Shown here piece after piece: positions 2,541 through 58,817 of a stretch of DNA of 64,000 nt. Source of the stretch: a virus; the IMG/VR virus record IMGVR_UViG_3300038424_000251, positions 1-64,000 of that record. The stretch is one strand, 5' to 3'. Within the stretch, counting starts at the first letter, position 1. Every line of letters begins with the position of its first letter. The notes under the pieces were generated by a model, which searched no databases, was not told where the DNA came from, and worked only from the letters and a program-made list of their open reading frames with translations. Position numbers and translations under genes: made by a program.

Positions 2541-3068
2541 TTATTTTCTTGGAGTAAAATTTACTGGGTCTAATAAAGGAGCTATTTCCTGTTCGCCACA
2601 GTCGGCCAAATATGATTTTACTTTTGGATTTTTTAATGCTTCACGGAATGATTGTTTCCATGTTATAGGAACGGGATTACCTGCTTCGTTGATATCTGGA
2701 TTATTATGAATTCTCTTTGCTTCTGACATCCAAGAACGAGTTACTTTATTAGTATGCTTGCGAATTCTCTCTCTATGTGATTCATTTGTATCATTAGGTT
2801 TTCGCAAACCGTTAGTTTTTATCTTAATCCAGATTTTATGTGGTTTTTCATCTTCATTGATATAAATAGAAGCACCTGAACGGTGTGTTTGCCAATCATT
2901 TCCTTCCATGTAACAGAACCAGTTTTTTCCTTCTACAATACCATCCCAATTTGGCGAACCGTCATTAAATCCTCCGGGCGTAGGGTATAGTTTAGGGTCA
3001 GGCGACCTATTAACGGCAGGAGCATGGCTAATCCATTCGATTATTTGAAGTAAAGTTTTTAGTTTCAT
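2541..3068 (-). CDS. Putative head-targeted internal protein, unknown function
   Basis: A 175-residue product beginning MKLKTLLQIIEW, a variant of the tag shared by neighbouring genes. The body is Trp- and charge-rich (SPNWDG, NWFCYMEGNDW, KIWIKIKTNGLR) and I do not recognise a family. It is the last gene of the leftward tagged block, yet has its own TATTTATA motif 4 bases before the ATG, so it may be separately transcribed. The packaging role is inferred from the tag only. Confidence 0.6.
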   Translation of the reverse strand: MKLKTLLQIIEWISHAPAVNRSPDPKLYPTPGGFNDGSPNWDGIVEGKNWFCYMEGNDWQTHRSGASIYINEDEKPHKIWIKIKTNGLRKPNDTNESHRERIRKHTNKVTRSWMSEAKRIHNNPDINEAGNPVPITWKQSFREALKNPKVKSYLADCGEQEIAPLLDPVNFTPRK

Positions 3069-3072
3069 TGAA

Positions 3073-3080
3073 TATAAATA
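3073..3080 (-). promoter_or_regulatory. TATTTATA motif, candidate late promoter
   Basis: TATTTATA on the minus strand, 4 bases before the ATG at 3068. The same motif precedes many structural and tagged genes in this window. Confidence 0.4.
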
Positions 3081-3087
3081 TGATGTA

Positions 3088-3981
3088 TTACTTGTAAGAT
3101 TCCCTTAATAAATTTAACTTTGAATCTCTTTGTGTGATTGTTATTCCCTGTTTCTTAAAAAAGTTTTCAACAGTATTCATATCATCTTCGGTAAGCATAC
3201 CTACATCCCAATATACCATACCTGTCTTTTTACCTTCTTCTGAAAAATGAAAACGAAAACGAACATTTGACCAATTGTGTGAAAATTCAGGTTCCCCACT
3301 ATGTTCTACACCATGATATCTTGATGATGGCAACCATTTATAGACAACTTCTCCATATTTACCTATCAAACCCAATCCCCATCGCCTTTCCTCTTTAGAT
3401 TCTTTTAAGTCATGATATTTAGCAATCCATTTTTTCCTTGTTTCAGACCTATCAGATGAGTACCGATTCATCATATCTTCTGCTTGTTTTCTACTAAATC
3501 CTAAATGACCGATGAGAAAATCTTTTAGTTCTGAGGTATAAGCTCTTATTTCTTCTGGGTCACCATAATATTTGTCACCCATCATTAGTGCATCATAAGT
3601 TATCTTATTGAATAGTTTTTTATGATAATTTATTGCATGAACTAATTCGTGATAAATAACACTGTCCACATATGCAGCATATTTACTTGAAGAATTATAG
3701 CGACCATGATAGACTCCCCCTATGGTTATAGTATCATCCTTAAAATTATATTCACCATATGGTAGAGTATCTTCTGAATAATATGTGTAACGAATTCTTA
3801 TGGATAGAATTTTATTTAGAAAGACATCAATTAAATCGTTCATAGAAAGACCAAACATTAAAAGTTGTTTAGAATCATATTCTTTTGGGAATGTTTTCTG
3901 CATATAAGTTCGCAAAGGTTCTCTAAATCTTTCCAAATCTCCAAAAAGATTTTCTAATAACAATATTTTTAATTTAATCAT
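3088..3981 (-). CDS. Tagged zinc metalloprotease-like protein (HExxH)
   Basis: A 297-residue product. Residues 1-10 (MIKLKILLLE) form the tag. HELVH at 111-115 is a zincin zinc-binding and catalytic motif in a helix (VIYHELVHAINYH); glutamates 143-144 in GDPEEIRAYT are good candidates for the third zinc ligand. The C-terminal 100 residues are rich in aromatic and charged residues and unassigned. The gene overlaps the 3974-4441 gene by 8 bases. Known biology: many zincins are peptidases. Inference: a protease carried in the head and either acting in head maturation or injected to cut a host protein. The substrate is unknown. Confidence 0.65.
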   Translation of the reverse strand: MIKLKILLLENLFGDLERFREPLRTYMQKTFPKEYDSKQLLMFGLSMNDLIDVFLNKILSIRIRYTYYSEDTLPYGEYNFKDDTITIGGVYHGRYNSSSKYAAYVDSVIYHELVHAINYHKKLFNKITYDALMMGDKYYGDPEEIRAYTSELKDFLIGHLGFSRKQAEDMMNRYSSDRSETRKKWIAKYHDLKESKEERRWGLGLIGKYGEVVYKWLPSSRYHGVEHSGEPEFSHNWSNVRFRFHFSEEGKKTGMVYWDVGMLTEDDMNTVENFFKKQGITITQRDSKLNLLRESYK

Positions 3982-4441
3982 TTATTTTAGGCTTCTGTGC
4001 ATTACAACAACCATACTCATTCACTTTTTCTTCAAGTTGAAATAGGTCTGGATTGGATTTATTCAGAGATTGAAATAACATACAAATTGATGTTTTTTGG
4101 TCAAAAGAACGACAATTTTCACATCTAACTTGACGATTTACCAACCCTGCTTCTTTTGGTGTATATGAGGCAACTTCCTTTCCTTTTAAATTTGGTGACG
4201 GTTTACCATAGACATAGAAATTACAACTCATTTCACAAGTTACTTTAATTTTTCCAAGAATGGAACATGTCAATCCATCTTCACCTGTCCACATTCTACA
4301 TGTAGCGCATTGAGCAAACTTTTCCTTTGGACCTTTTGGTTCTAAATATATAAAAACTTCTCTTGTAAGTTTGTTTTTTTGTTGTTTTACTTCGGAAAAT
4401 ACTTCCAATATCAACTTTTTTATATCATTTTTATTCATCAT
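3974..4441 (-). CDS. Tagged Cys-rich, probably metal-binding protein
   Basis: A 155-residue product. The N-terminus MMNKNDIKKLILEVFSEV is a longer form of the amphipathic tag with LxE. The body has two Cys clusters: CATCRMW with following C and CEMSC around residues 43-72, and CENCRSF with SICML and a C-terminal GCC at about 107-146. This suggests two zinc- or iron-sulfur-binding lobes, but I cannot name a family. It overlaps the genes on both sides by a few bases, so translation is probably coupled. Confidence 0.6.
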   Translation of the reverse strand: MMNKNDIKKLILEVFSEVKQQKNKLTREVFIYLEPKGPKEKFAQCATCRMWTGEDGLTCSILGKIKVTCEMSCNFYVYGKPSPNLKGKEVASYTPKEAGLVNRQVRCENCRSFDQKTSICMLFQSLNKSNPDLFQLEEKVNEYGCCNAQKPKIND

Positions 4442-5310
4442 AATTGTACAAAGAAATAGTGAACATCTTCATCTAAATCATAGGCCCAAACTATAAAGTG
4501 TCTAGTATAAGGAGATATATTTCTAGCAAATTCAAATTGATGCCTATCTATTTTTTTTCTTAAAAAATCTGGAACATCGCATCTTGATAAAAATAAATGT
4601 TTATTAACTATTTGTTTTTGACTATTAGGAATATCTTTTGGATCACCAACAAGATGTTCCATTTCTGTGGCATCCGATGCTATATAGTTTCTAAATGATG
4701 GGTCATTAAGACCTGTTTTACAATTTCCTACATAACCATACCTTTTCCCACCTTCTGTTAATACAGTTTCATTATTTTCTAATCTAAAATAAGATTTACC
4801 GCCTTGTATTGGAGAGTAACAAATTTCTCTGATTGAAACTTTTAATTTCAATCCTTCTTTTATATGAGAAAATTTTCCTTTTTGGACATAAGCTAATGTT
4901 AAATGTGGGTTATATTCCGGGTAATCATTTTCATTCAGATAAATTCCTGAAAGTTCGTTTAATTTTTTTAAAACTGGACTGTTTACTTTAAACATTGCTA
5001 CATCATATTGGGGCGATGAAACAAATTTATCTAATCCTGTAAGTTCAACAACAAAAGGTTTTTGTCCTTTAAGAAGTTGACGAACTTCCAATTCATTTAA
5101 ATCCTTCAAAAATCCATAACGAATAGTGACATGACTTTCCGTTTCTCTGCCATATTCCCCGTTTTCTACATATAAATCATTGTTATTGATTAGTTGTTTA
5201 CTAAATTTTAAAATAGAATCAGATGATTCTTTTGGAATCATAGCCATCAAACAACCTTTTTTAGCCGTTGCGTCTCTATTTTCATTTACCATTTCTTTTA
5301 GATTTATCAT
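4438..5310 (-). CDS. Tagged 2H phosphoesterase-like protein
   Basis: A 290-residue product. Residues 1-10 (MINLKEMVNE) form the tag. Two HxT motifs, HVT at 60-62 and HLT at 136-138, lie in matching strand contexts (SHVTIRYGF and PHLTLAYV), the signature of the 2H phosphoesterase fold (2'-5' RNA ligase, cyclic phosphodiesterase). These enzymes act on 2'-5' or 2',3'-cyclic phosphates, and phage 2H enzymes such as T4 Acb1 destroy CBASS cyclic nucleotides. The C-terminal 110 residues (RYGYVGNCKTG to HYFFVQL) form a separate unassigned domain. Enzyme class is well supported; the natural substrate and an anti-defence role are inference. Confidence 0.7.
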   Translation of the reverse strand: MINLKEMVNENRDATAKKGCLMAMIPKESSDSILKFSKQLINNNDLYVENGEYGRETESHVTIRYGFLKDLNELEVRQLLKGQKPFVVELTGLDKFVSSPQYDVAMFKVNSPVLKKLNELSGIYLNENDYPEYNPHLTLAYVQKGKFSHIKEGLKLKVSIREICYSPIQGGKSYFRLENNETVLTEGGKRYGYVGNCKTGLNDPSFRNYIASDATEMEHLVGDPKDIPNSQKQIVNKHLFLSRCDVPDFLRKKIDRHQFEFARNISPYTRHFIVWAYDLDEDVHYFFVQL

Positions 5311-5321: not shown

Positions 5322-7064
5322 TTATATATGTCTAACATACGTTTTATAATCATTAAGACCTATATGTTGAGGTTTATATATTCCTTTTTTTACTAACCAA
5401 TCTTCTGCTTTATGTCTATCTTCGTCAGTTGGTGGAAATTCATTCCACAAAATTGTATTTTTTGGGGTTTCTACAAAATATCTCCATCTTGTTCCTAATG
5501 ATGTGGAACCTATTCTCCCATGTGGTAATTCAGAATGATCTACTGCCATAACATCAGGAACCATTTCATCATAAGCTTCTATATTTCCATGATAAACTAC
5601 TCCTATGTAACCACGCCTTTTATTTATATCTTTTGCTTGTTCGTATGGACTCATTATTTCACTCATAGGCTTCTTAATATTACCAAAAATCAATTTATAT
5701 AATTCTTTAACATACTGAATAAATTTTGGTTTATCCAATTCGTAAATTCTTTTAAGTTTTTTTCGAGTATCGGAATGTGCCCAATATAACATAGCTACAC
5801 TATGAGGATGAATTGATTGATGGCCAGCAATATCATCTATCAAAGCTCTGAATCCTTCTTTTTTATTTGTAGGCCAAAATTTGCTAATTATAATTTCAAT
5901 ATTATTTTTATAATCATAAAGATTGGTTTTGAATTCTATATCTCTTAATTCATGTTCTATTCTATTAAATTTGTCTCCCGGTTCTTTAACAGTTCCAAAA
6001 ACATCTACACCTCTAATAGATGGATTTCTAAACCATCTTAATGATTTTTTGGATAATCCATATTTTTTAGGAAATTTTTTACGAAATTTTTTAAGAGTAT
6101 GTCCTAAAATATCTTGCAATAAATGTCTAACTTCATGTTTAACGTCGCGTAGTTTTCTTTCCATTGATGTGTTAAATTGTTCAATTAATTCTTCTACACA
6201 AAATGTTATATAAATAGCATTTTTTCCTGAGTCATAATAATCAGTACCTCCTAATGTTTTAGGGAGGGAATTATATTCTTCGTATGTTTCTACTGCTTTA
6301 AAATAAATCCAAAATGTTTTAAAATAACCTTCTCCTTCAATACTTGGTGTTCTGTAAAAGAACATATTTTGTTTAATTTTTATTGGAAATGCCATAATAA
6401 CCATCTCACCATTAGGAGATTTAAAAGGTTTAAGAGTTTCTCCTGATTTTATTTCTTGATATTTATTACCCACAATTTTATATGGATGGGCTAATGTTCC
6501 AAAAGACCTTGCCACATACGATTGAAGCATATCAGGAGATTTAGTTTGATACTTCTTTGATTTAAGGAAGGCTTCTATAATATAACCAGCAGCAGATTTG
6601 GTGATATCTATTACTTGTTTTTCAATTTCTAATGGAATCTCAAATGCTTCATTTAATTTTTTTATTTCAGGTCTTCTAAACATCGTAGGTCCAAAAAAAC
6701 TTGAAAGACTATAATCTTTTTTTCTTCCTCTATTATGTATGAATCCTAACGATTTATAAAATTTATCTAATTTCTTTTTGTACCGTTTTTCTGCTTCAGG
6801 AGAAAGAGTAATAATTAATCCGTGTTTATCAGCAAATGATTTAATGGCTTCTATAACTTTTCTTCCTATTCCTTGTTTACGAAACTCTTTCTTTATTTTT
6901 ATATCACGTAGATGAAATATATCTTGCCTGTAGCTTATATTAAAAAATAAACTTTCTAATTGAGGATACTGATGGATTAAGGACTGACGAAAATCTTCTG
7001 TCTCTTTATCAAGGTCAGTCTTATCTCCAAATCCTTCTATTATTAATGGTTTGAGTTTTATCAT
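5322..7064 (-). CDS. Tagged acetyltransferase-metalloprotease fusion
   Basis: A 580-residue product. Residues 1-10 (MIKLKPLIIE) form the tag. Residues about 40-125 look like a GNAT acetyltransferase, with acetyl-CoA loop RKQGIGRKV at 62-70 and FYKSLGFIHNRG at 102-112. A second domain holds HEVRH at 310-314, an HExxH zinc motif; acidic residues at 370-377 in IEHELRDIEF could supply the third ligand. The last 110 residues (RGYIGVVYHGN onward) are a further unassigned unit. Such multi-domain make-up suits an injected effector. Catalysis and targets are inferred from motifs only. Confidence 0.62.
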   Translation of the reverse strand: MIKLKPLIIEGFGDKTDLDKETEDFRQSLIHQYPQLESLFFNISYRQDIFHLRDIKIKKEFRKQGIGRKVIEAIKSFADKHGLIITLSPEAEKRYKKKLDKFYKSLGFIHNRGRKKDYSLSSFFGPTMFRRPEIKKLNEAFEIPLEIEKQVIDITKSAAGYIIEAFLKSKKYQTKSPDMLQSYVARSFGTLAHPYKIVGNKYQEIKSGETLKPFKSPNGEMVIMAFPIKIKQNMFFYRTPSIEGEGYFKTFWIYFKAVETYEEYNSLPKTLGGTDYYDSGKNAIYITFCVEELIEQFNTSMERKLRDVKHEVRHLLQDILGHTLKKFRKKFPKKYGLSKKSLRWFRNPSIRGVDVFGTVKEPGDKFNRIEHELRDIEFKTNLYDYKNNIEIIISKFWPTNKKEGFRALIDDIAGHQSIHPHSVAMLYWAHSDTRKKLKRIYELDKPKFIQYVKELYKLIFGNIKKPMSEIMSPYEQAKDINKRRGYIGVVYHGNIEAYDEMVPDVMAVDHSELPHGRIGSTSLGTRWRYFVETPKNTILWNEFPPTDEDRHKAEDWLVKKGIYKPQHIGLNDYKTYVRHI

Positions 7065-7065: not shown

Positions 7066-7668
7066 TTATTTTTGTTTCATTCTTTCAAACCAATCATCTC
7101 CATAAATCTTTGCTAGTTTATCATATATTTTTTTGGTAAGATGAATTCCTGCATCGGTCATCTGACCTAATTTGTCTTTTCCTTGCAAAATGCGTTGCCT
7201 TTGTTTTATATGAAAAACTCCTAAATCTGAACCTATTCCCAGTCTTTGATATGGTTTTTCTACCCATACACCCACTGCTCCAAATTCATTTGCAGCAAAC
7301 CCTACAGGTTTGTCTTCTATAAATGCTACTACCGTTTGATTCATAACAGGCAAATTTTCTTGTCTCATCTCATTATCCGACATATAAACAGGTTCATTAT
7401 TTTTATCACGTAATATGTCACCATTTTTATCAAATTTTACATATTTCACCTTTTCATTTCTTTGTCTATATTCTACAGTATAAGGACCATGTTGTTGACT
7501 AGCTATTAATTTAGGATATTCACTTTTATTGCCAAGCCAAGACAAACCACCTTCTGATTCATATCGGGTATATGCGTTAGAAGGAATGTGTCCTGTATAA
7601 TGATACTTAAGAAAATCTTCTTTATCAGACTCTATGATATTCTCAATAATGTCTCTTAATTTAATCAT
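7066..7668 (-). CDS. Tagged GNAT-family acetyltransferase
   Basis: A 200-residue product. The tag is MIKLRDIIENIIE. A GNAT core lies at about 110-185: VVAFIEDKPVGFAA as the central strands, VWVEKPYQRLGIGSDLG at 134-150 as the acetyl-CoA-binding loop, and a C-terminal helix-rich end (IYDKLAKIYGDDW). The region between tag and core (about 20-105) is polar and unassigned. It overlaps the next small GNAT gene by 4 bases, so the two are probably co-translated. The substrate is unknown. Confidence 0.65.
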   Translation of the reverse strand: MIKLRDIIENIIESDKEDFLKYHYTGHIPSNAYTRYESEGGLSWLGNKSEYPKLIASQQHGPYTVEYRQRNEKVKYVKFDKNGDILRDKNNEPVYMSDNEMRQENLPVMNQTVVAFIEDKPVGFAANEFGAVGVWVEKPYQRLGIGSDLGVFHIKQRQRILQGKDKLGQMTDAGIHLTKKIYDKLAKIYGDDWFERMKQK

Positions 7669-7994
7669 GGTTGTCGTAATGTTTTAATAAATGCTGCACC
7701 TTCTGGTGTAGTAATTCCCCATACAATTTTCCATCGAGGGTGTTCTCTATGTAAATCCCTAATCATTGCGGTTGCTATACCTTTTCTTCTTTCTGATTCA
7801 ACCGTTTCCATTCCGTCAATGTAAATTACATTTTCATATGTGGAATAATCAATTTTTCCAACTTTAATTCCCCTTTTGTCGTATGCAATAAGAGTGCAAT
7901 AATTCTGACCTTTATAATTATCTCTACAATCGTGTGTAAATTCTAAAGGCTCTCCTTTTACATATTCTGGTATAAGGTGTTTTAATTTTATCAT
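7665..7994 (-). CDS. Tagged small GNAT-like acetyltransferase
   Basis: A 109-residue product, short for the family. Residues 1-10 (MIKLKHLIPE) form the tag. VIYIDGMETVESERRKGIATAMIRDL at about 57-81 contains the acetyl-CoA loop RRKGIA, and WKIVWGITTPEGAAFIKTL matches the distal strand-helix. The N-terminal GNAT strands are reduced, so it may be a minimal or partly degenerate enzyme. It overlaps both neighbours by 4 bases. Confidence 0.6.
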   Translation of the reverse strand: MIKLKHLIPEYVKGEPLEFTHDCRDNYKGQNYCTLIAYDKRGIKVGKIDYSTYENVIYIDGMETVESERRKGIATAMIRDLHREHPRWKIVWGITTPEGAAFIKTLRQP

Positions 7995-9442
7995 ATTCCA
8001 GCCACTTTCTTAGCAATTGCTAATGCTTCATCTTTGGTCAATCCGGGATTACTATACCATGCATCAGCTACAGCATTTATAATTTCTTTGAATAATGGAC
8101 CCGGTTTCAAACCAAGGTCTTGTAAATCATATCCTGTTATAGGCATTTTTGGTTTAAGAGGGACGGTTTTTAATTTTTCCAATCTTTGTCTGATATTAGT
8201 AATTTGATTAGGCATTGACGATGCTTCAGAATGAGAAATATTATCTGCATGAATTAAATTTAATATATTTTCTAACTGTTCTCCTATTTCATTACGAAAT
8301 TTCAGTAGAGTTTTATCTTTGAATTTAACTCCAGCATCACCAGCTTGTTTTAATCTCATATGATTACGAACACCCAATTTAACTGCATCAATCAATTCTC
8401 TTGGATATTTTAATCTGTTCATTACATCTTCAACAATTTTTTCACCAGCTTCCTCATGTCCATAAAAATGAACACCTTTAGTCTCGGGGTCAACTGTTTT
8501 TGTGACAGTTTTTCCTATATCATGAAATAATGCCATTAACCGTTGAACTAGTATTGGTTCGGTTTTGCTTAATACATCAAGAGTATGTTGGAATACATCA
8601 TGTTTATGATGAATATTTTGAGCCATCTTTATTGCTGGTACTAATTCAGGAATTACAAATGGTAATAGTTCTGTAATTTTTAATAATTTAATTCCTTTGG
8701 ATGGAGAGCCAGTGATAAGAATTTTATTCAATTCGTCACGAATTCTTTCTTGGGAAATATTTTTAAGTTGAGAAGCATTTTTCTTTAAGCCTCTTATCAT
8801 AAATAAAGGAAGTGTCCAATCATATTTAACCGCAAAACGAACTGCTCTTAGCATACGGAGTGGGTCATCAGTAAAGATTTTATCGGGATTTAAAGGTGTT
8901 CTTATGATACCAGCTTTAATATCATCTTTGCCTTTACCTGTTAAATCAAGAATTTCTCCTGTGGATAAATCTTTTAATAAACTATTTACAGTAAAATCTC
9001 TTCTTTCAACATCATCTTTGAGTTCGCCGCCGGTAACTATTGGTTTTCTTGAACCCGGAATATATTTTTCTTTTCTTGGCATTACAGCTTCGATATCTAT
9101 ATCACTCAAATCTATACCATCATGAACAACACCACGAAGATTAAATTTAGCTGTTCCAAATCTTGGAAAAATTACAGGGTTTGAACTTGGGTCTTCTTCA
9201 GTTTCTCCACCTTTATAAGCTCCAACTTTTTTAGTAATCCATTTAGCAAATTCAATTCCACCATTTGGAGAATTAACAAGTAAATCCAAATCTTTCGGGT
9301 CTTTACCCATAAATTCATCGCGGACATATCCACCTGCTATGAATACTTTACCTTCCCATTCTGTTTCTTGGATGGTCTTTTTAATAAAGTCTTCTACAGC
9401 TTTTTCTTTTACACCTTCTAAAATAAGTTGTTTTATGCTCAT
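7991..9442 (-). CDS. Tagged CCA-adding tRNA nucleotidyltransferase with HD domain
   Basis: I chose the ATG at 9442, which gives MSIKQLILEG, a tag variant; the upstream in-frame ATG at 9478 would add 12 AT-rich-coded residues. The poly(A)-polymerase/CCA-enzyme head is clear: FIAGGYVRDEF with GGYVRD at 37-42 and DLD at 51-53, then RRDFTVNSLL and DPLRMLRAVRFA. An HD phosphohydrolase domain follows (HDVFQHTLDVL, ALFHDIGK, GHEEAG), as in bacterial enzymes that repair or add the tRNA 3' CCA. Length (483 residues) is normal. The packaging tag on a tRNA-repair enzyme is unusual and suggests delivery with the genome. Confidence 0.82.
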   Translation of the reverse strand: MSIKQLILEGVKEKAVEDFIKKTIQETEWEGKVFIAGGYVRDEFMGKDPKDLDLLVNSPNGGIEFAKWITKKVGAYKGGETEEDPSSNPVIFPRFGTAKFNLRGVVHDGIDLSDIDIEAVMPRKEKYIPGSRKPIVTGGELKDDVERRDFTVNSLLKDLSTGEILDLTGKGKDDIKAGIIRTPLNPDKIFTDDPLRMLRAVRFAVKYDWTLPLFMIRGLKKNASQLKNISQERIRDELNKILITGSPSKGIKLLKITELLPFVIPELVPAIKMAQNIHHKHDVFQHTLDVLSKTEPILVQRLMALFHDIGKTVTKTVDPETKGVHFYGHEEAGEKIVEDVMNRLKYPRELIDAVKLGVRNHMRLKQAGDAGVKFKDKTLLKFRNEIGEQLENILNLIHADNISHSEASSMPNQITNIRQRLEKLKTVPLKPKMPITGYDLQDLGLKPGPLFKEIINAVADAWYSNPGLTKDEALAIAKKVAGI

Positions 9443-9481
9443 TAAAATATAATTTTTTATTATACCATTATTTTTCATATT

Positions 9482-10033
9482 TTACAATAAAAATCTATTA
9501 AAGAACGCTTCATTTCTACCAGTCAATTTTTTTCCAGCAGAACTTCTAATATACTCTTTTTTTGCTGTATTCCAATTATTTCTCAATACTGCATCCGTAA
9601 ATTTTGGAAATTTTTCAAGACCGCCTAAACTGAAAGAAAAATCCATCAACATTTCCTCTTGTTTTTTGGATAACATAATATTTACATTATATGTTTTTTT
9701 GATATAATTGCGCATTCTTTGTTTTGCTATTTGTAAATCTTGAATAAGAATTTTTTCAGCAGTTTTTTGGTCTATACCATTTTTGAAATTGATAATTTCG
9801 TCATCTTCCAATTTATGACCATAAGCTATGTTCCATCCGGCTATATCTTTGTAAGGAAACCACAATTTTTTTTGCTTATCAAATCCAGCATATATTGAAT
9901 TTTCAACGGTTTTAATATATTTTATGAAATCGGGAGAAAATTCCTGATGCTGAATATGAATAGCAGGTGGTTGTGTTGCTGGTGACAAAGCTTCAATCAT
10001 AAATTCTTCAATAATTTCCCTTAGTTTAATCAT
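9482..10033 (-). CDS. Tagged T4-type lysozyme (GH24-like)
   Basis: A 183-residue product. The tag is MIKLREIIEEFMIEA. Residues about 40-75 resemble the T4 lysozyme active-site region: a Glu in TVENSIYAGF, then PYKDIAGWNIAYGHKL aligning with the YKDTEGYYTIGIGHLL segment of T4 lysozyme. Later helices include LSKKQEEMLMDFSFSLG and the C-terminal GRNEAFFNRFLL. Expected reaction is cleavage of peptidoglycan. The head-type tag raises the possibility that it is packaged rather than, or as well as, used for lysis. First gene of the leftward block, with a TATTTATA motif 3 bases before the ATG. Confidence 0.72.
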   Translation of the reverse strand: MIKLREIIEEFMIEALSPATQPPAIHIQHQEFSPDFIKYIKTVENSIYAGFDKQKKLWFPYKDIAGWNIAYGHKLEDDEIINFKNGIDQKTAEKILIQDLQIAKQRMRNYIKKTYNVNIMLSKKQEEMLMDFSFSLGGLEKFPKFTDAVLRNNWNTAKKEYIRSSAGKKLTGRNEAFFNRFLL

Positions 10034-11762: not shown

Positions 11763-11984
11763 ATGAAAACAAGACTATTTGAGAATGTAAACGGCAATCA
11801 ATTCAAGCTGTCGGAAGACGGACACGGTGAAACTGATATGTCTAATCCAGCAGAAAAAAGAGAAGTTCAAATTGGTAAAGAAATATTTAAACTAACCAAA
11901 TTTCTTCAATATGAAAGTGATGCTCATATTGTACGAGAAATACAAAAATTAGCATTAGAACTTATGCAAATGCATGAAGGATAA
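11763..11984 (+). CDS. Small hypothetical protein
   Basis: A 73-residue product beginning MKTRLFENVNG, with a charged middle and helical C-terminus (IVREIQKLALELMQM). The first residues loosely resemble the tags of neighbours, but the (L/I)xE end is imperfect. It lies 2 bases before the gp14-like gene. Unknown function; perhaps a small packaged or assembly protein. Confidence 0.5.
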   Translation: MKTRLFENVNGNQFKLSEDGHGETDMSNPAEKREVQIGKEIFKLTKFLQYESDAHIVREIQKLALELMQMHEG

Positions 11985-12806: not shown

Positions 12807-13199
12807 ATGATTAAATTGAAACAACTACTTTATGAAGCAATTGATGAAAATGATCTTATTGTGGTTTCAACCCCAACTAATGTTTCTATATCATATCGTA
12901 TTAGTCTTATGAAAGGTGCTACAGCTAGTATAGATAGAATAGATAATAATGAATGGTGGGTATCAAGAGTATTGGTTAGTGATGAATCTTCAAGAAGACA
13001 AGGAATTGGTTCAATTCTATTGACAAGAGCTGTTCAGGAAGTGTTAAAGCATGAACCTAATGCTAAAATAATTGTTGCACCGGGTGGATATGAAAGTAAA
13101 ACAAGACAACAAACTAGATTTTATAAGAAAAATGGGTTTATTCCAGTAAAAGGGCAACTCGGAGTTTTAATGTATAACAATCCAAATATAAGTAAATAA
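12807..13199 (+). CDS. Tagged GNAT-family acetyltransferase
   Basis: A 130-residue product. The tag is MIKLKQLLYEAIDE. A compact GNAT domain follows: WVSRVLVSDESSRRQGIGSILL with the acetyl-CoA loop SRRQGIGS near residue 70, then AKIIVAPGGYESK and RFYKKNGFIPVKG as the distal core. It ends one base before the gp15-like gene. The fourth GNAT-like domain among tagged genes in this window. Acceptor unknown. Confidence 0.7.
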   Translation: MIKLKQLLYEAIDENDLIVVSTPTNVSISYRISLMKGATASIDRIDNNEWWVSRVLVSDESSRRQGIGSILLTRAVQEVLKHEPNAKIIVAPGGYESKTRQQTRFYKKNGFIPVKGQLGVLMYNNPNISK

Positions 13200-23639: not shown

Positions 23640-23972
23640 ATGATTAAGTTAAAAGACATGATACCTAAAAAGTATTTTTATCATATTACACCAAGGAAAA
23701 ATATTCCAAATATGAAAATACATGGTATAGTTCCCAAACCAGATAATCCTGCTCCTTTTTGTGATAAAGTAGTTTGTTTATTTGATAATAGGACATCAAT
23801 AGAAACTGCATTTACGAGTTGGTTGTTAGGTAAATTTAATAAAAATGAGCCAATGGTTCTTTTAACTATAGACCCTACGGGGTTAGACATACATTCATCT
23901 GAAATAGCATATGAATTTAGAGTTTTTAAACCCATACCTTGGAAAAATGTTGTAAAAGTTGAAAATATATGA
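23640..23972 (+). CDS. Tagged ADP-ribosyltransferase-like small protein
   Basis: A 110-residue product. The tag is MIKLKDMIPKK, here lacking the usual Glu. FYHITPRKNIPNMKIHGIVPK at 13-33 is the opening of several ADP-ribosyltransferase-fold families (DarT/DUF4433, Tpt1-like): YHIT strand followed by a helix ending in GI.P. VVCLFDNRTSIETAF and AYEFRVFKPIPWKNVVKV match later strands. It is short for the fold, so NAD binding is only a suggestion. T4 also packages an ADP-ribosyltransferase (Alt) with a cleaved tag, an instructive parallel. Confidence 0.5.
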   Translation: MIKLKDMIPKKYFYHITPRKNIPNMKIHGIVPKPDNPAPFCDKVVCLFDNRTSIETAFTSWLLGKFNKNEPMVLLTIDPTGLDIHSSEIAYEFRVFKPIPWKNVVKVENI

Positions 23973-24880
23973 TTAAACTAAAAAACATTTTAACTGAAGT
24001 AGCTGCAGATAGGTCATGGAATTCTCAATTATGGAACTCTGATTTATGGCAATCAAATTTATGGAACTCTGATATATGGAAATCTCATATATGGAACACA
24101 GATTTGTGGAAATCTGATTTATGGAAGTCTGATATATGGAATCCTAGTTCAACTACTACTGCTGCTACATCAAAAGAACTGACTGAAATTGAACAACATA
24201 AACCTAATGAAGTAGAAGCTTTGCCGGGTATTTTTGTGGACCCTTCAATTATAAAACATATTCAAATATTAAATAAACTTGGATTTCACACAGTTTTTTC
24301 TTGTTCTGGAATTTCATATGACCATCCCAATTTGAAGGCTGGTTCTCGTAGTGGTTATGTAATGTTTAGACATGGTTTAACTCCTAATCAAATAACGAGA
24401 ATATACAAAGCTACACTTGGTATAAAGGGGGTAAATTATGATCCGATTCATCTTAGGTCAGTTCCTTATGTTAGTTTTAGGGGTAGTGATTCTGAAAGAT
24501 TGAATGGTTGGAACCAATTTGTGAAGAATTTAATGAAGCGTAGAGTATATTATAAAAAATTAGGTAAAATCAAGGAATCAGAAGAAAAACATTCACGTAA
24601 AGGGAAATGTTATGAGCTTACCGGTAGATATGTTTCTACTCACCCCGATTCCATTCTTGTTCATGGTAAATTAGTAAATCCGTTTGTGAAAGGATTACCA
24701 GAAATAGAGCATGCATGGGTGGAAATTGGTGATAAAATTTTTGACCCCATAATGGATATAACTTGGCCAAAACAAGCATATGAGTCTTTATTTCATGCTA
24801 AACCATATAAAAAATATACTCAGGAGGAAGTTCTTAAAATTACTCTTAGAACAGAGCATTGGGGGCCTTGGGATGTATGA
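23969..24880 (+). CDS. Tagged protein with WNSDL repeats and papain-like C-terminal domain
   Basis: A 303-residue product. The tag is MIKLKNILTEVA. Residues 17-61 are nine five-residue repeats of type WNSDL/WKSDI. Residues about 85-190 form a globular domain (FVDPSIIKHIQILNKLGFHTVFSCSG). The C-terminal domain has C214 (KGKCYELTGRY), H248 (IEHAWVEIGDKIFDP) and D259, the order and spacing seen in transglutaminase/papain-like cysteine enzymes. The start overlaps the preceding stop and the end overlaps the next start. Enzyme class is tentative; the repeat is certain. Confidence 0.6.
   Translation: MIKLKNILTEVAADRSWNSQLWNSDLWQSNLWNSDIWKSHIWNTDLWKSDLWKSDIWNPSSTTTAATSKELTEIEQHKPNEVEALPGIFVDPSIIKHIQILNKLGFHTVFSCSGISYDHPNLKAGSRSGYVMFRHGLTPNQITRIYKATLGIKGVNYDPIHLRSVPYVSFRGSDSERLNGWNQFVKNLMKRRVYYKKLGKIKESEEKHSRKGKCYELTGRYVSTHPDSILVHGKLVNPFVKGLPEIEHAWVEIGDKIFDPIMDITWPKQAYESLFHAKPYKKYTQEEVLKITLRTEHWGPWDV
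24017..24151 (+). repeat. Nine tandem 15-base repeats coding W(N/K)SD(L/I)
   Basis: In-frame 15-base units (consensus TGGAANTCTGATNTA) coding for WNSQL, WNSDL, WQSNL, WNSDI, WKSHI, WNTDL, WKSDL, WKSDI and WNPSS. Confidence 0.9.
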
Positions 24881-26857: not shown

Positions 26858-27976
26858 ATGAAAATATCCAAAATTAAAGAAATAATTGATGAAGTTATAT
26901 CTGAAGAAATGGGGGAGGGATTTGGTTATGTCTATGCGAAAGACAGAGCTAAAGACCCAAAATCCATTCCCGGAGAACACTGGCGAATTAAATTTCAAAG
27001 CGCTCACGATTTAAAGAAACATGGTAATACGGAAAAATCAAAAGTGTCAGAAATTATCTATGAAATTCCTCGAAAGATTGGAATAAATGCAATGGGTGAC
27101 GAAATAGGTAGAACTTCCACTGACGAAGGAGAACTCAGGAATATGATTGGTAATATGAAACCCGGCCAATCTATTCTTTTTCATGGTAAAGAAGGTATAA
27201 AAGGACCTTTAATTTATATTGTTAAACGTGAGGGTATTGGATATGAAGTTGAGAATCATAGAAAACAAAAGCAAGAAATCACCAATGCTGACCAACTCGA
27301 TTTAATTATCAGTGGTATTGCAAAACAAGCAAACATTTTATTTAGATTTTGGAAACAAAATAAACCATCCACATATTCAGCTCCGAAATTACCAGTTGTA
27401 TCTAAAGAACAAATTAGGGAAATAATTAAAGAATTGATTGATGAAATGTGGATTGCATGGGAAGAAGATAAAAATGACAACAAAGATATAACAGAAAGTA
27501 AATATATGAATAATAAAAAAGAATTCTTAAGAGATATAATTCGTGAAGCTATTCAAGAAGTAGAATTTGAAGATGCTCCTGATGAAAAATATCAAGAAGA
27601 ACAAGAAATACTGTCTATGAAGAGAATACAATCATATGCTCATTGGATAAAAGAAAATCTTAAAGATGCTGCTAGTGAAATTGGTGGAGTAATTCAGAAA
27701 ATAGTAACCGAAATTGATGGTCTTGTTTCGGCTCATGAAAAAGGGAAGGAAATTTCACCAGTCAATGTTCACGAAGTAGCTCCTCCGGGGTGGGAAGGAA
27801 CAGTAAAAGCTATGAAGAAACATTCTGTTGGTGGGGCTAAAAGGTGGGCTCCAAAAAAGAAAAAAGAAGAAACCGTGGATGTGGAAGAAGCCAAAAAGAA
27901 GAAAAAGATTACTAATCCATATAAATTAGCATGGTGGATGAAAGGTAAAGGTTATAAATCACATAAACAAGATTAA
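26858..27976 (+). CDS. Putative packaged polyprotein with three tag copies and basic tail
   Basis: A 372-residue product. Tag-like helices occur at residues 1-17 (MKISKIKEIIDEVISEE), about 183-197 (KEQIREIIKELIDEM) and about 217-236 (MNNKKEFLRDIIREAIQEV). Between the first two lies a globular domain (HWRIKFQSAHDLKKHG to IYIVKREGIGYEVENH). After the third comes a helical stretch and a Lys-rich tail (KRWAPKKKKEE, EAKKKKKITNPYKLAWWMKG) fit for DNA binding. The layout suggests cleavage in the head into separate internal proteins. The Met at 217 could also be an internal start. Confidence 0.6.
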   Translation: MKISKIKEIIDEVISEEMGEGFGYVYAKDRAKDPKSIPGEHWRIKFQSAHDLKKHGNTEKSKVSEIIYEIPRKIGINAMGDEIGRTSTDEGELRNMIGNMKPGQSILFHGKEGIKGPLIYIVKREGIGYEVENHRKQKQEITNADQLDLIISGIAKQANILFRFWKQNKPSTYSAPKLPVVSKEQIREIIKELIDEMWIAWEEDKNDNKDITESKYMNNKKEFLRDIIREAIQEVEFEDAPDEKYQEEQEILSMKRIQSYAHWIKENLKDAASEIGGVIQKIVTEIDGLVSAHEKGKEISPVNVHEVAPPGWEGTVKAMKKHSVGGAKRWAPKKKKEETVDVEEAKKKKKITNPYKLAWWMKGKGYKSHKQD

Positions 27977-29729: not shown

Positions 29730-30191
29730 ATGAGAACATCACAATTAAAAGGACTTATAAAAGAGATTATAAGAGAATATTTTAATGAAGGACGATATGG
29801 GAAGTATGAAAAAATAAAGGGTATCGGAGGAGTAAGAGGAGTTCGTTCAGCTCAGAGAGGATTATTAAAGCATGTACCTCTTAATATTGACCCAAGTTCT
29901 CCAAAAATGGGAACTCGTATTAAAGTCCCCTCTACTATGATTAAAAGAAAGTATTATTCAGATAAAGTAATCAGAATAAAAATTCCTGCTGGTACTGAAG
30001 GATTTGTGAAAGAACTTGTTGTAGGATTTAATGTTGGTGCTATAAGTCCAAAGAATTTTAGAATTGTTGGTCCAACGGGTAAAAAAAATGTACCTCAACC
30101 ATTAACATCTCATCAATTAAGATATATCGTAAATCTTGGTAAATACGGTTATGTGTCTTTAACAAGAGATGAATTTGAAGTAATTAAGTAA
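29730..30191 (+). CDS. Tagged basic protein of unknown function
   Basis: Start placed at 29730, giving MRTSQLKGLIKEIIREYFNEG, a strong tag; the ATG at 29724 (two residues more) is possible. ATATTTATG directly precedes. The 153-residue product is basic: GVRGVRSAQRGLLKHV, MIKRKYYSDKVIRIKIPAG, then LRYIVNLGKYGYVSLTRDEFEV. No family recognised. Its charge suits an internal, DNA-associated protein. Confidence 0.6.
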   Translation: MRTSQLKGLIKEIIREYFNEGRYGKYEKIKGIGGVRGVRSAQRGLLKHVPLNIDPSSPKMGTRIKVPSTMIKRKYYSDKVIRIKIPAGTEGFVKELVVGFNVGAISPKNFRIVGPTGKKNVPQPLTSHQLRYIVNLGKYGYVSLTRDEFEVIK

Positions 30192-30952
30192 TGATGAAAA
30201 AATCAATTCTAAAACGTCTTATTAAAGAAATAATAACTACATCTAGGTGGGATACTCCTAAAGGAACTCCTGATACAGTTATCAATGTAATGCATATTAT
30301 AATTGCATCATTGCAAAAAAGAAATATAGAAAACCCTACTGATTATGTTAAAATTGGAAAACTTAAAATGTCTAAACCTTCAGATTTAGGATGGAGTATA
30401 TTTTCGTCAAAAGGAAATGAACGTAATTATATTTATTATGTTAATACAAATAATACGTGGTATATAAGTACTGTATCAAAAAATAAAATAGGTTTTAAAA
30501 TAAGAAATGCTAAAAATTTGGGAGATGTTTTTTTACATTCAATAATGGAAGATTGGGTAAATTTTACAGAAAGGGGAATTGATAATTTAATTAGTGAAGA
30601 TTTCACATTAGGATATAGTCATGGTATTGTTATTGATGACCCGACATTTTTAGTTCGTGACCCATTAAATGACCCTGAATTGACAGGTAAAATGAATGAA
30701 CAATATAGATTTCATGATTTTGATTGGTTGTCAGATATGAGTGGTTTTGGTAAACCTACAGATGTTTATTATGGTTCTATACTGTTGGGTGTAATTGAAT
30801 CAAAGCCTGATGGATATATAATAAGAATAGTAATGGGACCAAAACGAGCTGAACTTATCAGGTCCTCACCAAAAAATAAATTTAAAACTAAGGAAGTAGC
30901 AGCCAAAGTTCTTCATGCAACATGGAAACAATTTAGAAATATAAATATATGA
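30191..30952 (+). CDS. Tagged protein of unknown function
   Basis: A 253-residue product beginning MMKKSILKRLIKEIITTSRW, a clear tag. The body mixes strands and helices (WSIFSSKGNERNYIYYVNTNNTWYIST, VFLHSIMEDWVNFTERGIDNLIS) and ends with a basic helix (KEVAAKVLHATWKQFRNI). Its start overlaps the previous stop codon and its end overlaps the next start, so three genes are coupled. No family assigned. Confidence 0.58.
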   Translation: MMKKSILKRLIKEIITTSRWDTPKGTPDTVINVMHIIIASLQKRNIENPTDYVKIGKLKMSKPSDLGWSIFSSKGNERNYIYYVNTNNTWYISTVSKNKIGFKIRNAKNLGDVFLHSIMEDWVNFTERGIDNLISEDFTLGYSHGIVIDDPTFLVRDPLNDPELTGKMNEQYRFHDFDWLSDMSGFGKPTDVYYGSILLGVIESKPDGYIIRIVMGPKRAELIRSSPKNKFKTKEVAAKVLHATWKQFRNINI

Positions 30953-43066: not shown

Positions 43067-43756
43067 ATGAATAAAAAATTGCTTGAAAAAATTCTAAATG
43101 AAGTTTCGTTGGATAAAAGGGTAAAGGATGGTATGTTTAATATTGAGGAAAACGACCATATGGGAGCTTTGCGTGATTATCTTATGAAAAAAGGTATCGA
43201 CGAAGAATCTGTTAACTCATTCTCCAACAAAGTATTGGAAGGAAAATATCCTGAACGACAAGCTTATAATACCAAAGGTATTTTAGTTACATTCCCTACA
43301 CCTGAATATAAACAAGCAGCCATTAAACGTGGAACTCATTTTGAGAAAGACCCCACAAAGAAAGCTGCGAATATTTTTGGAACACAACCACCAACTGCAC
43401 CAGCAGAAAAGCCCACTGCAGAACCAGAAAAATCAAAAACCGAGCCAAAGACCAATCTCCCTGTTTCTCAAGCTGCACCACCCACATCAGATGATACTAC
43501 TGAAACTGAACCCGTTCAAGCTAAGACTACTGCAGCTCCACAACAAACACCTGTTTCTACACCAACGGCTGAACCAACAAAAGAACCAACCGATTTACCT
43601 TTACCACCACCAAAAACCCCAGCGGAAAAGGAAGCTGATAAAGCAGCCATTAAAACTATGTTGAAAGGTGACGATTATATGTTGGATGAAGTTATTCAAT
43701 ATATAATGTTCAATGCACCACATATAATGAATGAAATCAAGAAGAAATTATTATGA
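43067..43756 (+). CDS. Tagged protein with Pro-rich linker
   Basis: Start at 43067, giving MNKKLLEKILNEVSLDKRV, a tag variant with LNE; the in-frame extension upstream covers the promoter motif. The 229-residue product has a compact N-terminal domain (ALRDYLMKKGIDEESVNSFSNK) and an about 90-residue Pro/Thr/Glu/Ala linker, then a short helical C-terminus (EVIQYIMFNAPHIMNEIKKKLL) that is also tag-like. No family recognised. Late-type motif and tag suggest a packaged internal protein. Confidence 0.58.
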   Translation: MNKKLLEKILNEVSLDKRVKDGMFNIEENDHMGALRDYLMKKGIDEESVNSFSNKVLEGKYPERQAYNTKGILVTFPTPEYKQAAIKRGTHFEKDPTKKAANIFGTQPPTAPAEKPTAEPEKSKTEPKTNLPVSQAAPPTSDDTTETEPVQAKTTAAPQQTPVSTPTAEPTKEPTDLPLPPPKTPAEKEADKAAIKTMLKGDDYMLDEVIQYIMFNAPHIMNEIKKKLL

Positions 43757-49848: not shown

Positions 49849-51195
49849 TTAGAATCCATGAAGAGCTTCTTTTTCACGTTTCTGTTCAATTTTTCTTTCA
49901 ACTTCTATTTCAATTTCTTTCGTTAATTTTGCTAAATCAGCTAATGCCTTTAGTCTATATGTTAAACTACCACCATGTCTTTCTATATTACCCAATCTAC
50001 GTCTTTGACGTTCTCTAGAAGCAATGGCATGTTTTAAGCAGTATTCTCTGATGGTAGCAGGTTGTCCACAATCTATACAACGCTTTGCTTTTTTCATTCT
50101 TAATCGCCATTTATGTTGATTTGAAATGGGTAAATCAGAAAATTCGTCTTTAATTGGAGGACGACCTATTTCATTAATTATTTCAATTACATAATCATTA
50201 AAAGAAGGTTGTTGCTGTTGTTTTTTACGCTCTTTTTGGATTGCATCGTCAACTGCTTTATCAAATGCTAATTGCAATTTATATGTTTTGCTACCAAATC
50301 TTCTTGTTTTATAACCTAATGCACGTCTTTGAGCTTCTCTATAAATAATAGCATGTTTTAAGCAATATCTTGCTACAACAGCAGGTTCTCCACATATTAT
50401 ACATTTATTTTCTTTTTCTCTTCTTAGTTGATATTTTCTTTGTCTTGAGATAGGTAAATCAGAAAATTCATCATGGTATGGTTTTCCAGTTACTTCATCA
50501 ATTACTTCTTTAATAAGTTGTTTGAAATCATTTTTTGTGATAAATGTTTGTTCTTCTAACTCATAACCAATTTTTGCGCCTCTCATCATATCTCGCCTAT
50601 ATTTTTCTCTAGCTCTCATTGCGGGTTTAAGAATATTTTTGAATCTATCGGTTTCTCTTCGCAGTTCTTCTTTGTCTTTTTTAAGTTTTGCACAATCTCT
50701 GCAAACCTGCATTTGATTTCCTTTGTCGTCTTTTTCTGCTTTTTTCTTAAAACACTTAATACAAATACCTTGTTTCAATGCTTGAAGTCGTCTAGCTTTA
50801 AGTTCATCTTCACATTTTTGACAAAGTTTTTTACCCGGCAGGGGTGGATTTGGACATCTCGCACAAGAACCACGTTTCTTTATTAATTTTTCTCTAGCTG
50901 CTCTAAATTGTTTAAGACAATCTTCACAATATATTCCTCTTTTTCCATTTGGTTTTATAATTGCTGGATTTTTACCACATTGAATACACAATCCTTTATT
51001 TCTTCTGGCTTGTTTAAGTTTCATTGAGGCAAATTTTTGTCTTTGTTTTGTAGTCATGCCTTTCAAGGCAAATTGTTCTTCCGGTGTTAATTCATACTCG
51101 GTGCTTGTACGAAAATCAGGACCATATTGCCTGTTATAAATTCTAACCTCTTTTATAACTTCCCAAATTAATTTATGGAATTCCATTGGTGTCAT
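49849..51195 (-). CDS. Tagged multi-zinc-finger putative polyprotein
   Basis: A 448-residue, strongly basic product. Tag-like helices occur at 1-18 (MTPMEFHKLIWEVIKEV), about 220-235 (TKNDFKQLIKEVIDEV) and 332-343 (FNDYVIEIINEI). The first module has several CxxC knuckles (CIQC...CEDC, CARC...CQKC, CIKC...CRDC). Modules two and three are clear duplicates: both read DEFSDLPIS, then a CxxC, then YCLKHA and a basic RxRRxLG helix. These look like DNA-binding units, each led by a cleavage tag. TATTTATA precedes the start. Confidence 0.65.
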   Translation of the reverse strand: MTPMEFHKLIWEVIKEVRIYNRQYGPDFRTSTEYELTPEEQFALKGMTTKQRQKFASMKLKQARRNKGLCIQCGKNPAIIKPNGKRGIYCEDCLKQFRAAREKLIKKRGSCARCPNPPLPGKKLCQKCEDELKARRLQALKQGICIKCFKKKAEKDDKGNQMQVCRDCAKLKKDKEELRRETDRFKNILKPAMRAREKYRRDMMRGAKIGYELEEQTFITKNDFKQLIKEVIDEVTGKPYHDEFSDLPISRQRKYQLRREKENKCIICGEPAVVARYCLKHAIIYREAQRRALGYKTRRFGSKTYKLQLAFDKAVDDAIQKERKKQQQQPSFNDYVIEIINEIGRPPIKDEFSDLPISNQHKWRLRMKKAKRCIDCGQPATIREYCLKHAIASRERQRRRLGNIERHGGSLTYRLKALADLAKLTKEIEIEVERKIEQKREKEALHGF

Positions 51196-56385: not shown

Positions 56386-56414
56386 TTGACACAAATATTA
56401 TATTAGGTTATAAT
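56386..56414 (+). promoter_or_regulatory. Consensus sigma-70 promoter of Mom-like gene
   Basis: TTGACA (56386-56391), exactly 17 bases, TATAAT (56409-56414): perfect consensus. The ATG at 56423 lies 8 bases after the -10 box, so the mRNA should have a leader of at most about 2 bases. Confidence 0.85.
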
Positions 56415-56422
56415 CTATCCAT

Positions 56423-57199
56423 ATGCTGGAAGAAAAATATTTTGATGCTAAAAGAGTTATCATCAAGAAAATAGATAAGGCTGTAGCTGAAGAAATAATT
56501 ATAAAATATCATTATTCACATAAATGGTCTTTATGTCAGATTGCGTATGGAATTTTTTATATTACCGACAAGCAATGTCAATTTTTTAATGCTGTAGAGG
56601 AAACTCTTATTGGTTGTATTGTATATGGTCAGCCCGTTGGTCGTTCTGCTGCCGAATCTATTTCAAAGTTAGTTGGTGTTTACGAAGTATTTGAACTTAC
56701 TAGATTATTCATTCATGATGGATACGGTAAAAATATAGAAAGTTATTCAATATCAAAATCTCTAGAACTTGTTAAAAGAGATTTCCCACATATTAAAGCA
56801 ATAATTTCTTATGCAGATGGTGAGCAGGGACATAAAGGAACTATTTATCAGGCTTGTAATTTTCATTATCAAGGTAATTCTTCTTTAGCTTTGATGCCCA
56901 ATTACTCTGTTTCTTTAGTTGGACCTCCTTATAAATGGATTCACTCAAGAACTATTTCATCAACATATGGTTCGCATAACGTTGAATATTTGAAAAAAAA
57001 GATAGGTCATACATTCTGGAGAAAAAAAGAATCTTCAAAACACAGATATGTTTACTTACTTGGAAATAAAAAAGAAAAAAGAAAAATACTGTTAAATCTT
57101 AAACATCCATTTCAATCTTACCCAAAGAGTACAAATCATACCGATGAAATTGAACAAATCATAGTAAATCCTCTTACAGAAAATCAATTCTTTGGATGA
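56423..57199 (+). CDS. Mom-like DNA-modification protein
   Basis: A 258-residue product. EETLIGCIVYGQPVGRSAA, VYEVFELTRLFIHDGYGKN, then IKAIISYADGEQGHKGTIYQACNFHYQGNS match the phage Mu Mom family, a GNAT-like fold that makes acetamido/methylcarbamoyl-type adenine in DNA and so blocks restriction. The conserved SYADxxQGHxGTIYQ segment is near residues 129-145. The perfect early promoter suggests expression at once on infection, unlike Mu, where mom is late. The modified base has not been shown here. Confidence 0.7.
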   Translation: MLEEKYFDAKRVIIKKIDKAVAEEIIIKYHYSHKWSLCQIAYGIFYITDKQCQFFNAVEETLIGCIVYGQPVGRSAAESISKLVGVYEVFELTRLFIHDGYGKNIESYSISKSLELVKRDFPHIKAIISYADGEQGHKGTIYQACNFHYQGNSSLALMPNYSVSLVGPPYKWIHSRTISSTYGSHNVEYLKKKIGHTFWRKKESSKHRYVYLLGNKKEKRKILLNLKHPFQSYPKSTNHTDEIEQIIVNPLTENQFFG

Positions 57200-57224
57200 A
57201 ATATTGATATTTATAAGAGATATG
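57195..57224 (+). promoter_or_regulatory. 30-base promoter-like element, second copy
   Basis: Matches 10057-10086 with one mismatch; TATTTATA at 57208-57215, ATG at 57222. It overlaps the end of the Mom-like gene. Confidence 0.55.
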
Positions 57225-58817
57225 ATAATGTCTTTTATTACAGATATGGGTGAGAAACTCAAATTGGTTGACCAAAAAACTGGTAATATTATTGAATTGC
57301 CTCAACATGCTTATTGGGATGATTTAGGTAAAGGTAAACCAGAAGTTAAGGAAACAGGTGACAATTTAGAACATCTTAAAAAAAAATATAATGTACCGGA
57401 CAATCGCATAATTAGAGCAAAGGAACTTACACAAAGTATGAAAGAAGCTGTATCTAGTGAAAATATCAATATTATTGTTGACAGAGAATCGGAACTTGGT
57501 TATAGAGTTGTAAATGCTGTTTATATTAGAGGCGGATTTGAAAAAGGAATTGAAAAAATAAAGAAATTATCCAGTTATAAAGGAGTAGTTCAGTTTGTAA
57601 ATCCAGAAACAGGAGAAACGGTAAAAGGGCCTAAATATGATACAGCAACACAAATTATGAAGGGAAGAAAAATTAGTGATGTATTACCCCGTGGAATAAA
57701 ACAACAACCACCAACTGAACCAACACAATATGAACCAAGAGATAGAGTTGATGAATTAGAATGGGGAAAAAAACCACAACAATATAAAAGTCAAATTATA
57801 GTTAGCAAAAAATGGTTAGGAAAATATAAAGTTACTGCTTATGATGAAAATGGTAATATAGCAGGAAATGGAACAGAACAATATGAATTTGCGTCACCTG
57901 ACCATGTTGTAGTAACAGTCAGATATTTACAGAAAAAACATCCTGAATGGTCCGTTATAGATTTAACTAAAGAAATATTTATGAATGAAATCACTAAATT
58001 TAGAAACATAATCAGAGAGTGTATCTCTGAAATAAAAAAAGAGAACGACCCAAGAACACTTCTTAAAGAGTCACTTCGTAATGTAGTTAAAGAAGTTTTA
58101 AAAGAAATAGCGACTGTTTCTAAACCAGAACCAACCGAAGAGGAAAAAACAGACACTTCCAAGGGATATTTCAAAAAATTGAATCAACGTGTGGATAAAA
58201 CTAATGATAAATTACAGGCTGAACTTGAAACGATTGTTCATGGTATTGACCCTACTTGGGAAGTCTATTGGGATGACCACAATCAGTTGATTGTTCGTGC
58301 TCATAATCTTTTATATGTTAGAATTGTGCCAAAATTTGAAAATAATTATGATATTGATGCTATGGTGAAATTGGTTGATAGAGTCCGTGCTATAGCTCAA
58401 ACATGGGACCAAGTTAAGGCATTTGTCAAAGCTAACTTTAATGATTTGAAAAATCAGACTATTCCTGATAAATTACATAAAAAATCTGTTGATAACTATG
58501 AAGATAGAGAAGTAATTAAAAAGGATGCTGGCCCGGAGAAAGCTAAAGTTAATTTTAGATATCAAGACCCAAAACATAGTAGTGTTAAAGATACTAAGAA
58601 AGATGATAAAAATTATAATGAACCTCAAACCAAGAGGGCAGAAGATATGCCTGACCAACCAATGAAGCAGGTGACAGAGCCCGGTAAAGACCCGGAATCT
58701 AAAAATAAAAACATTACAAAAACTCCTCAGGTTAAACCACCAAAACACAAACTTGACAAAAAATTGAGAGTGAAAGACAAGAAAACTTCCAAATTTACTT
58801 TTAAGAAGACAACCTAA
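57222..58817 (+). CDS. Putative late polyprotein with central tag copies
   Basis: Start at 57222 (MIMSFITDMG); the TTG at 57192 only reads through the promoter element. The 531-residue product has an N-terminal half with an ELGYRVVNAVYIRGGFEKGIEK domain and a strand-rich SQIIVSKKWLGKYKVTAYDENG module. Two tag-like helices lie at about 254-271 (MNEITKFRNIIRECISEI) and 276-291 (LLKESLRNVVKEVLKEI). A folded domain follows (LETIVHGIDPTWEVYWDDHN), then a long Lys-rich disordered tail (KHKLDKKLRVKDKKTSK). The design resembles the polyprotein at 26858-27976. Confidence 0.6.
   Translation: MIMSFITDMGEKLKLVDQKTGNIIELPQHAYWDDLGKGKPEVKETGDNLEHLKKKYNVPDNRIIRAKELTQSMKEAVSSENINIIVDRESELGYRVVNAVYIRGGFEKGIEKIKKLSSYKGVVQFVNPETGETVKGPKYDTATQIMKGRKISDVLPRGIKQQPPTEPTQYEPRDRVDELEWGKKPQQYKSQIIVSKKWLGKYKVTAYDENGNIAGNGTEQYEFASPDHVVVTVRYLQKKHPEWSVIDLTKEIFMNEITKFRNIIRECISEIKKENDPRTLLKESLRNVVKEVLKEIATVSKPEPTEEEKTDTSKGYFKKLNQRVDKTNDKLQAELETIVHGIDPTWEVYWDDHNQLIVRAHNLLYVRIVPKFENNYDIDAMVKLVDRVRAIAQTWDQVKAFVKANFNDLKNQTIPDKLHKKSVDNYEDREVIKKDAGPEKAKVNFRYQDPKHSSVKDTKKDDKNYNEPQTKRAEDMPDQPMKQVTEPGKDPESKNKNITKTPQVKPPKHKLDKKLRVKDKKTSKFTFKKTT

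Follow-up and report, generated by a model that had tools for sequence, protein, structure and literature searches.

Known capsid targeting sequences and the locus studied

In bacteriophage T4, the first 10 residues of the internal protein IPIII suffice for packaging, and the prohead protease gp21 cuts after the glutamate of an L/I-X-E motif. Residues 4 and 7 of IPIII determine targeting and residues 8 and 10 processing, and an aspartate at position 10 blocks processing and leaves targeting intact (PMC9026906). Here, a comparable N-terminal tag is described for the virus record IMGVR_UViG_3300038424_000251 (365,299 bp), of which the first 64 kb, hereafter the window, were analysed; outside the window, nine stretches (about 175 kb) of the same record were examined. 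An earlier note on this DNA had proposed that about 19 unrelated proteins share an N-terminal tag and are packaged in the head as effectors. The shared tag was confirmed, and it is very probably a capsid targeting sequence (CTS) of the T4 internal-protein type on a large set of cargo proteins.

A shared N-terminal tag in the window

Each of the 19 start codons listed in the earlier note was verified in the window sequence. The starts at 30191 and 4441 have a second ATG at 30194 and 4438, respectively, and the start at 9442 is an internal ATG of an open reading frame (ORF) that opens at 9478. Apart from a few paralogues, the products have no overall similarity, and they have in common a short amphipathic N-terminal stretch. 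The LxE-type ending ascribed to it was found as [LIV]-X-E within the first 9-15 residues in 18 of the 19 proteins, but not in the protein starting at 23640. The tag forms two classes instead of one family: a class A tag of 10 residues (MIKLKxLIxE) and a class B tag, a longer helix (MKKSxLKxLIKEIIxE).

Scored in the first 20 residues, the simple motif [LIVMFY][KRQEH]x[LIMF][ILVM]xE occurs in 17 of 66 window proteins, compared with 0.75 expected from shuffled N-termini or 0.89 from the internal rate. In 20-kb control loci of the record, the motif was absent at 64-84, 290-310 and 310-330 kb and found once each at 100-120, 150-170 and 200-220 kb; three further tags lie at 257-262 kb, and most other sampled regions are without tags. 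A motif-free pairwise test gave 27 N-terminal pairs with BLOSUM62 scores of at least 28, versus 1-4 in shuffles, and no excess in the same-genome control loci. The codons of the tag vary freely, hence the conserved entity is the protein and not the DNA. The simple motif is not fully specific, as it also matches the N-terminal helix of the large terminase (L010:4736). This helix (TLRDIIKEE; L010:4736-6349 and many relatives) resembles the tag, and the terminase N-terminus was treated as a false positive.

Agreement with the T4 targeting sequence

Residue conservation was evaluated in 133 phage proteins that begin with MIK and were missed by the pattern of the database scan described below. Their information content peaks at positions 4 (L), 7 (I/L), 8 (L/I) and 10 (E), with lower values at 6 and 9 and a collapse after 10. 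Judged by conservation, the tag matches position by position the determinants of the T4 CTS, both the targeting pair (4 and 7) and the processing pair (8 and 10). Glutamate occupies position 10 in 44 of 66, 15 of 17 and 9 of 10 members of three phage sets, compared with 1 of 10 in bacteria. In three orthologues of the 2H phosphoesterase of the window, the tag keeps L4, M7 and E10 unchanged, with variation at residues 5, 6, 8 and 9. With a matrix derived from the window alone, T4 gp24, which begins with MAKINELLRE, ranks 3rd of 214 T4 ORFs. At the sequence level, the tag system has every feature of a T4-type CTS that was tested.

Head genes of the same genome

The earlier note had suggested looking for a gp21-like protease gene outside the window, and an S77 (gp21-family) protease is indeed encoded at 342.9 kb (PF03420, E 1.7e-27), having the GELxHP and SSRG motifs in common with T4 gp21. 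A T4-type portal (336.9 kb, E 3.5e-69) is encoded near the protease and a T4-type major head protein downstream of it. The latter keeps an L/I-X-E site followed by A (QLIEE-A near residue 60), where T4 gp23 has FLTE-A. The genes flanking the protease, in the position of T4 genes 67, 68 and 22, start with the tag-like stretches MKKSQFQSLIKNVVEE, MSKKIKLRNLLNLTE and MKKSQLKLIISE. The record is without end repeats; if its two ends join, the cargo cluster of the window would belong to one late region together with the head operon at 330-356 kb.

Tagged genes in other phages

The search for the tag elsewhere in the genome and in related phages, also proposed in the earlier note, found it rare in the control loci and abundant in other viral contigs. 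A scan of IMG/VR with a DNA pattern for MIKLKx[LF][LIM]xE gave at least 120 matches versus 11 for the reversed pattern used as control. Of the 120 viral matches listed, 90 lie at an ORF start, compared with 6 of 119 in bacterial genomes. In the viral loci of these 90 listed matches, 60 of 937 other ORFs are tagged (1.1 expected); in bacterial loci with ORF-start matches, no other ORF is tagged. Large tagged contigs encode an S77 protease in 10 of 15 cases and a T4 portal in 11 of 15, and five control contigs found with the reversed pattern gave one weak S77 match, none past the cut-off. Clustering of 260 tagged proteins by their bodies gave about 147 families, of which 106 have a single member. 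In the 484-kb phage LR756508, 27% of the ORFs in a 100-kb stretch are tagged. With the strict expression, no match was found in the examined portions of the phages HTVC008M and Melnitz.

Agrobacterium phage Atu_ph07 encodes an S77 protease and carries eleven consecutive tagged genes (gp53-gp63) inside coding sequences (CDS) 31-76. In the genome report, 29 of the 46 products of CDS 31-76, with only two predicted as structural, were present in virions by electrospray ionization tandem mass spectrometry (PMC6102473); this count, which is for the cluster as a whole, indirectly supports the presence of tagged proteins in virions. The copies of an ADP-ribosyltransferase (ART) with an MRWxQLTE-type tag fall within the same CDS range.

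Three additional features were observed in these phages. An F-variant of the tag (MIKFKKFITE) precedes P-loop kinase-like proteins (AGGPGSGKS) in L134, L136 and L140, with homologues in cultured Pelagibacter (HTVC008M), Methylophilales and Agrobacterium phages. A second recurring element, RKFGEPLPTL, stands behind the tag in many small proteins (L113, L123, L147, L161, L165, L166, L188 and L192). Lastly, in portal or S77 ORFs of G003, G005, G010 and G015 and at LR756508:156507-158102, frames of 367-1440 amino acid residues (aa) have the family match split in two; several tagged phages thus probably have inteins in their head genes.

Exchange of tags and internal copies

Tags and bodies combine in different ways. 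The W-x-P...VINV family carries a class A tag on the protein starting at 12466 and a class B tag on that at 30194. In L227, the C-terminal domain of the protein starting at 23969 comes immediately after the tag, and in L139 and L202 it has no tag. Homologous ART bodies (E down to 3e-24) are preceded by MxLKxLLxE-type tags in LR756508 and by M[RK]WxQL[TN]E in Atu_ph07. Membership of the CCA enzyme looked doubtful because in the close relatives L103 and L104 it is internal to GNAT-CCA fusions, but its listing as tagged was borne out by the 56%-identical CCA enzyme of phage L154, which starts with MIKLKQLIKEG.

Internal class B copies occur in 26858-27976, 49849-51195 and L010:13723. They point to polyproteins that are cut in the head, or else to an additional role of the helix. 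The ORF L103:9158-11866 (902 aa) joins a GNAT domain, the tag-like linker EIKQLIVEG, a CCA/HD domain and an ART/KptA-like domain; in the window, these domains are separate tagged genes.

Tagged genes of the window

Table 1 Tagged genes of the window. Function names follow Pfam and PHROGs matches, several of them weak
Position	Strand	Product	Tag and remarks
2541..3068	-	175 aa, body unknown	MKLKTLLQIIE, shifted by one; tag and body conserved in L104 (85% identical)
3088..3981	-	297 aa, HELVH zinc-protease-like motif	MIKLKILLLE; Peptidase_M91 only at E 0.096
3974..4438	-	154 aa, Cys-rich treble-clef-like body	class B, MNKNDIKKLILEVFSE
4438..5310	-	290 aa, 2H phosphoesterase, two HxT motifs	MINLKEMVNE
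5322..7064	-	580 aa, GNAT acetyltransferase and further domains	MIKLKPLIIE
7066..7668	-	200 aa, GNAT-like (weak)	MIKLRDIIE, E at 9
7665..7994	-	109 aa, GNAT	MIKLKHLIPE
7991..9442	-	483 aa, CCA-adding/poly(A) polymerase-HD enzyme	MSIKQLILE
9482..10033	-	183 aa, phage lysozyme	MIKLREIIEE; tagged homologues in L103, L104, L170, L211
11297..11734	+	145 aa	class B, MKKEQLKILVREVLKE
11763..11984	+	73 aa, possible further member (weak)	MKTRLFENV; start kept as MKTKLFEN in L104, L226
12466..12804	+	112 aa, W-x-P...VINVLH family	MIKLKQLVKE
12807..13199	+	130 aa, GNAT	MIKLKQLLYE
23640..23972	+	110 aa, ART/KptA-like (YHIT)	MIKLKDMIPK, Lys at position 10
23969..24880	+	303 aa, WNSDLW repeats, C-terminal domain	MIKLKNILTE
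26858..27976	+	372 aa	class B, N-terminal, and two internal class B copies (residues about 183-200 and 221-240)
29730..30191	+	153 aa	class B, MRTSQLKGLIKEIIREYFNE
30194..30952	+	252 aa, body homologous to 12466-12804 (E 1e-4)	class B, MKKSILKRLIKE
43067..43756	+	229 aa	class B, MNKKLLEKILNE
49849..51195	-	448 aa, zinc-ribbon repeats	class B, MTPMEFHKLIWEVIKE, and internal copies

Structure predictions were of low confidence for the HELVH protein (predicted local distance difference test, pLDDT, 51; fold search uninformative) and for the 2H protein (pLDDT 48), for which the nearest Pfam families, 2_5_RNA_ligase2 and Acb1, were both just below the cut-off. The lysine at position 10 of the ART is also present in its homologue in L227 (69% identical), and the homologue in L174 has glutamate there. 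This ART may be targeted and left uncut, as the result with aspartate at position 10 in T4 would allow. A tblastn search for it in cultured phages gave no match. The tandem WNSDLW/LWKSDIW repeats of the 303-aa protein lie at 24014-24149, directly behind its tag.

Interpretation of the tags

In the mechanism that we propose, tagged proteins would bind the prohead core late in infection through hydrophobic side chains at positions 4 and 7. The S77 protease encoded by the phage itself would then cut after Glu10 of the L/I-X-E site and the mature cargo would stay in the head. In the next infection, the cargo would enter the cell with the DNA and act on the host, in the form of ADP-ribosyl- and acetyltransferases, a 2H phosphoesterase, a protease, a CCA enzyme and a lysozyme. 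The class B tag would serve the same address, and its internal copies may let the same protease split proteins. Targeting, cleavage, packaging, injection and effector action are steps that we infer.

The tags might instead be helices that dock to the prohead core or elsewhere in the virion and are not removed, on proteins that act in assembly and are not injected. Class B tags that are internal to proteins or belong to products of genes next to the protease gene would suit such a role, and tag cleavage is itself a prediction. We consider it unlikely, as E10 is specifically conserved next to a free position 9 and an L/I at 8, just as expected for a gp21 site, and as ART, GNAT, 2H, CCA and kinase-like cargo fits host take-over better than assembly. 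Still less probable is that the tag directs proteins to the tail, to the baseplate or to a compartment for replication, for example a phage nucleus. Compartments of this sort exist in some jumbo phages and the tagged genes lie among late genes, but none of 40 proteins of the tail and baseplate loci at 290-330 kb is tagged (1 of 40 with a looser expression), the head genes are T4-type, and the T4 tag of this kind serves the head (PMC9026906). A compositional artefact of AT-rich DNA, with Lys-rich starts and amphipathic N-terminal helices, has a negligible probability: Lys-rich starts are common and the terminase N-terminus matches the motif, but composition-keeping shuffles yield about 1 match, same-genome controls 0-1 and the reversed pattern 11 compared with at least 120. 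Chance or composition as the source of the tags is ruled out by the shuffles, the control loci and the reversed pattern.

Several observations weigh against the tags being T4-type targeting sequences on injected cargo. The virion content of this phage is predicted from its genes, and the tag at 23640 has lysine in place of glutamate at position 10. Among the tagged contigs, 5 of 15 are without an S77 match, though the contigs are fragments. RM378 and Microcystis phage Mel-JY01 have an S77 protease and few or no such tags, hence the tag is not obligatory. Known T4 substrates rank moderately with the window matrix (gp68 8th, Alt 17th and gp22 20th of 214). Several class B-tagged proteins beside the protease may be prohead core proteins and not effectors, and the virion count for Atu_ph07 holds for the cluster as a whole.

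As a broader proposal, which we advance tentatively and with slightly less than even expectation, the swappable class A and B tags would be a general, sequence-readable address for head loading across a large group of uncultured phages of the T4 superfamily. The cargo families would number in the hundreds, and internal tags would mark polyproteins, to be split into individual effectors by the prohead protease within the head. As a rule, it takes mass spectrometry of purified virions to learn which proteins a phage injects. Should the tags prove to be head addresses, sequence would suffice to predict what a very common group of environmental phages injects. This set would comprise about 150 mostly uncharacterised families, probably acting in the first minutes of infection, including ARTs, acetyltransferases, an Acb1-like 2H enzyme, kinases, proteases and lysozymes. 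A long-standing question would thereby become testable, and the families would be a source of candidate anti-defence proteins.

Comparison with known systems

A literature search, with preprints outside its scope and few subscription papers covered, found no description of these tags and none of their literal sequences. The principle is known from T4; what is new is the scale, the consensus, the breadth and the probable polyproteins. Similar to IPI-III and Alt of T4, the class A tag comprises 10 N-terminal residues with hydrophobic positions 4, 7 and 8 and a glutamate at 10 in an L/I-X-E context, and it is accompanied by a gp21-family protease, a T4-type head and highly diverse bodies. T4 Alt is itself an ART, and ARTs recur as cargo in the tagged phages. 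Unlike T4, in which the tag reads MKTYQEFIAE, the consensus here is MIKLKxLIxE, and about 20 tagged genes occur in one 64-kb window compared with three internal proteins and Alt. Many enzyme folds, a second, longer tag class and internal tags also set the present system apart.

The inner-body and ejection proteins of the giant phages phiKZ and SPN3US are likewise numerous, head-packaged, protease-processed and ejected, properties that are predicted from the genes in our case. Their propeptides often exceed 100 residues and carry an S/A-X-E motif (PMC5694885, PMC9026906). In contrast, the tags described here have 9-18 residues with L/I-X-E, and long propeptides with S/A-X-E do not characterize them. 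Polyvalent proteins such as P1 DarB resemble the tagged proteins as enzymatic effectors that presumably enter together with the DNA of a phage or plasmid. They combine many domains in one giant protein, whereas the tagged genes mostly encode one domain each, the window products have 73-580 aa, and polyproteins, such as the GNAT-CCA-ART protein of L103, are few and short.

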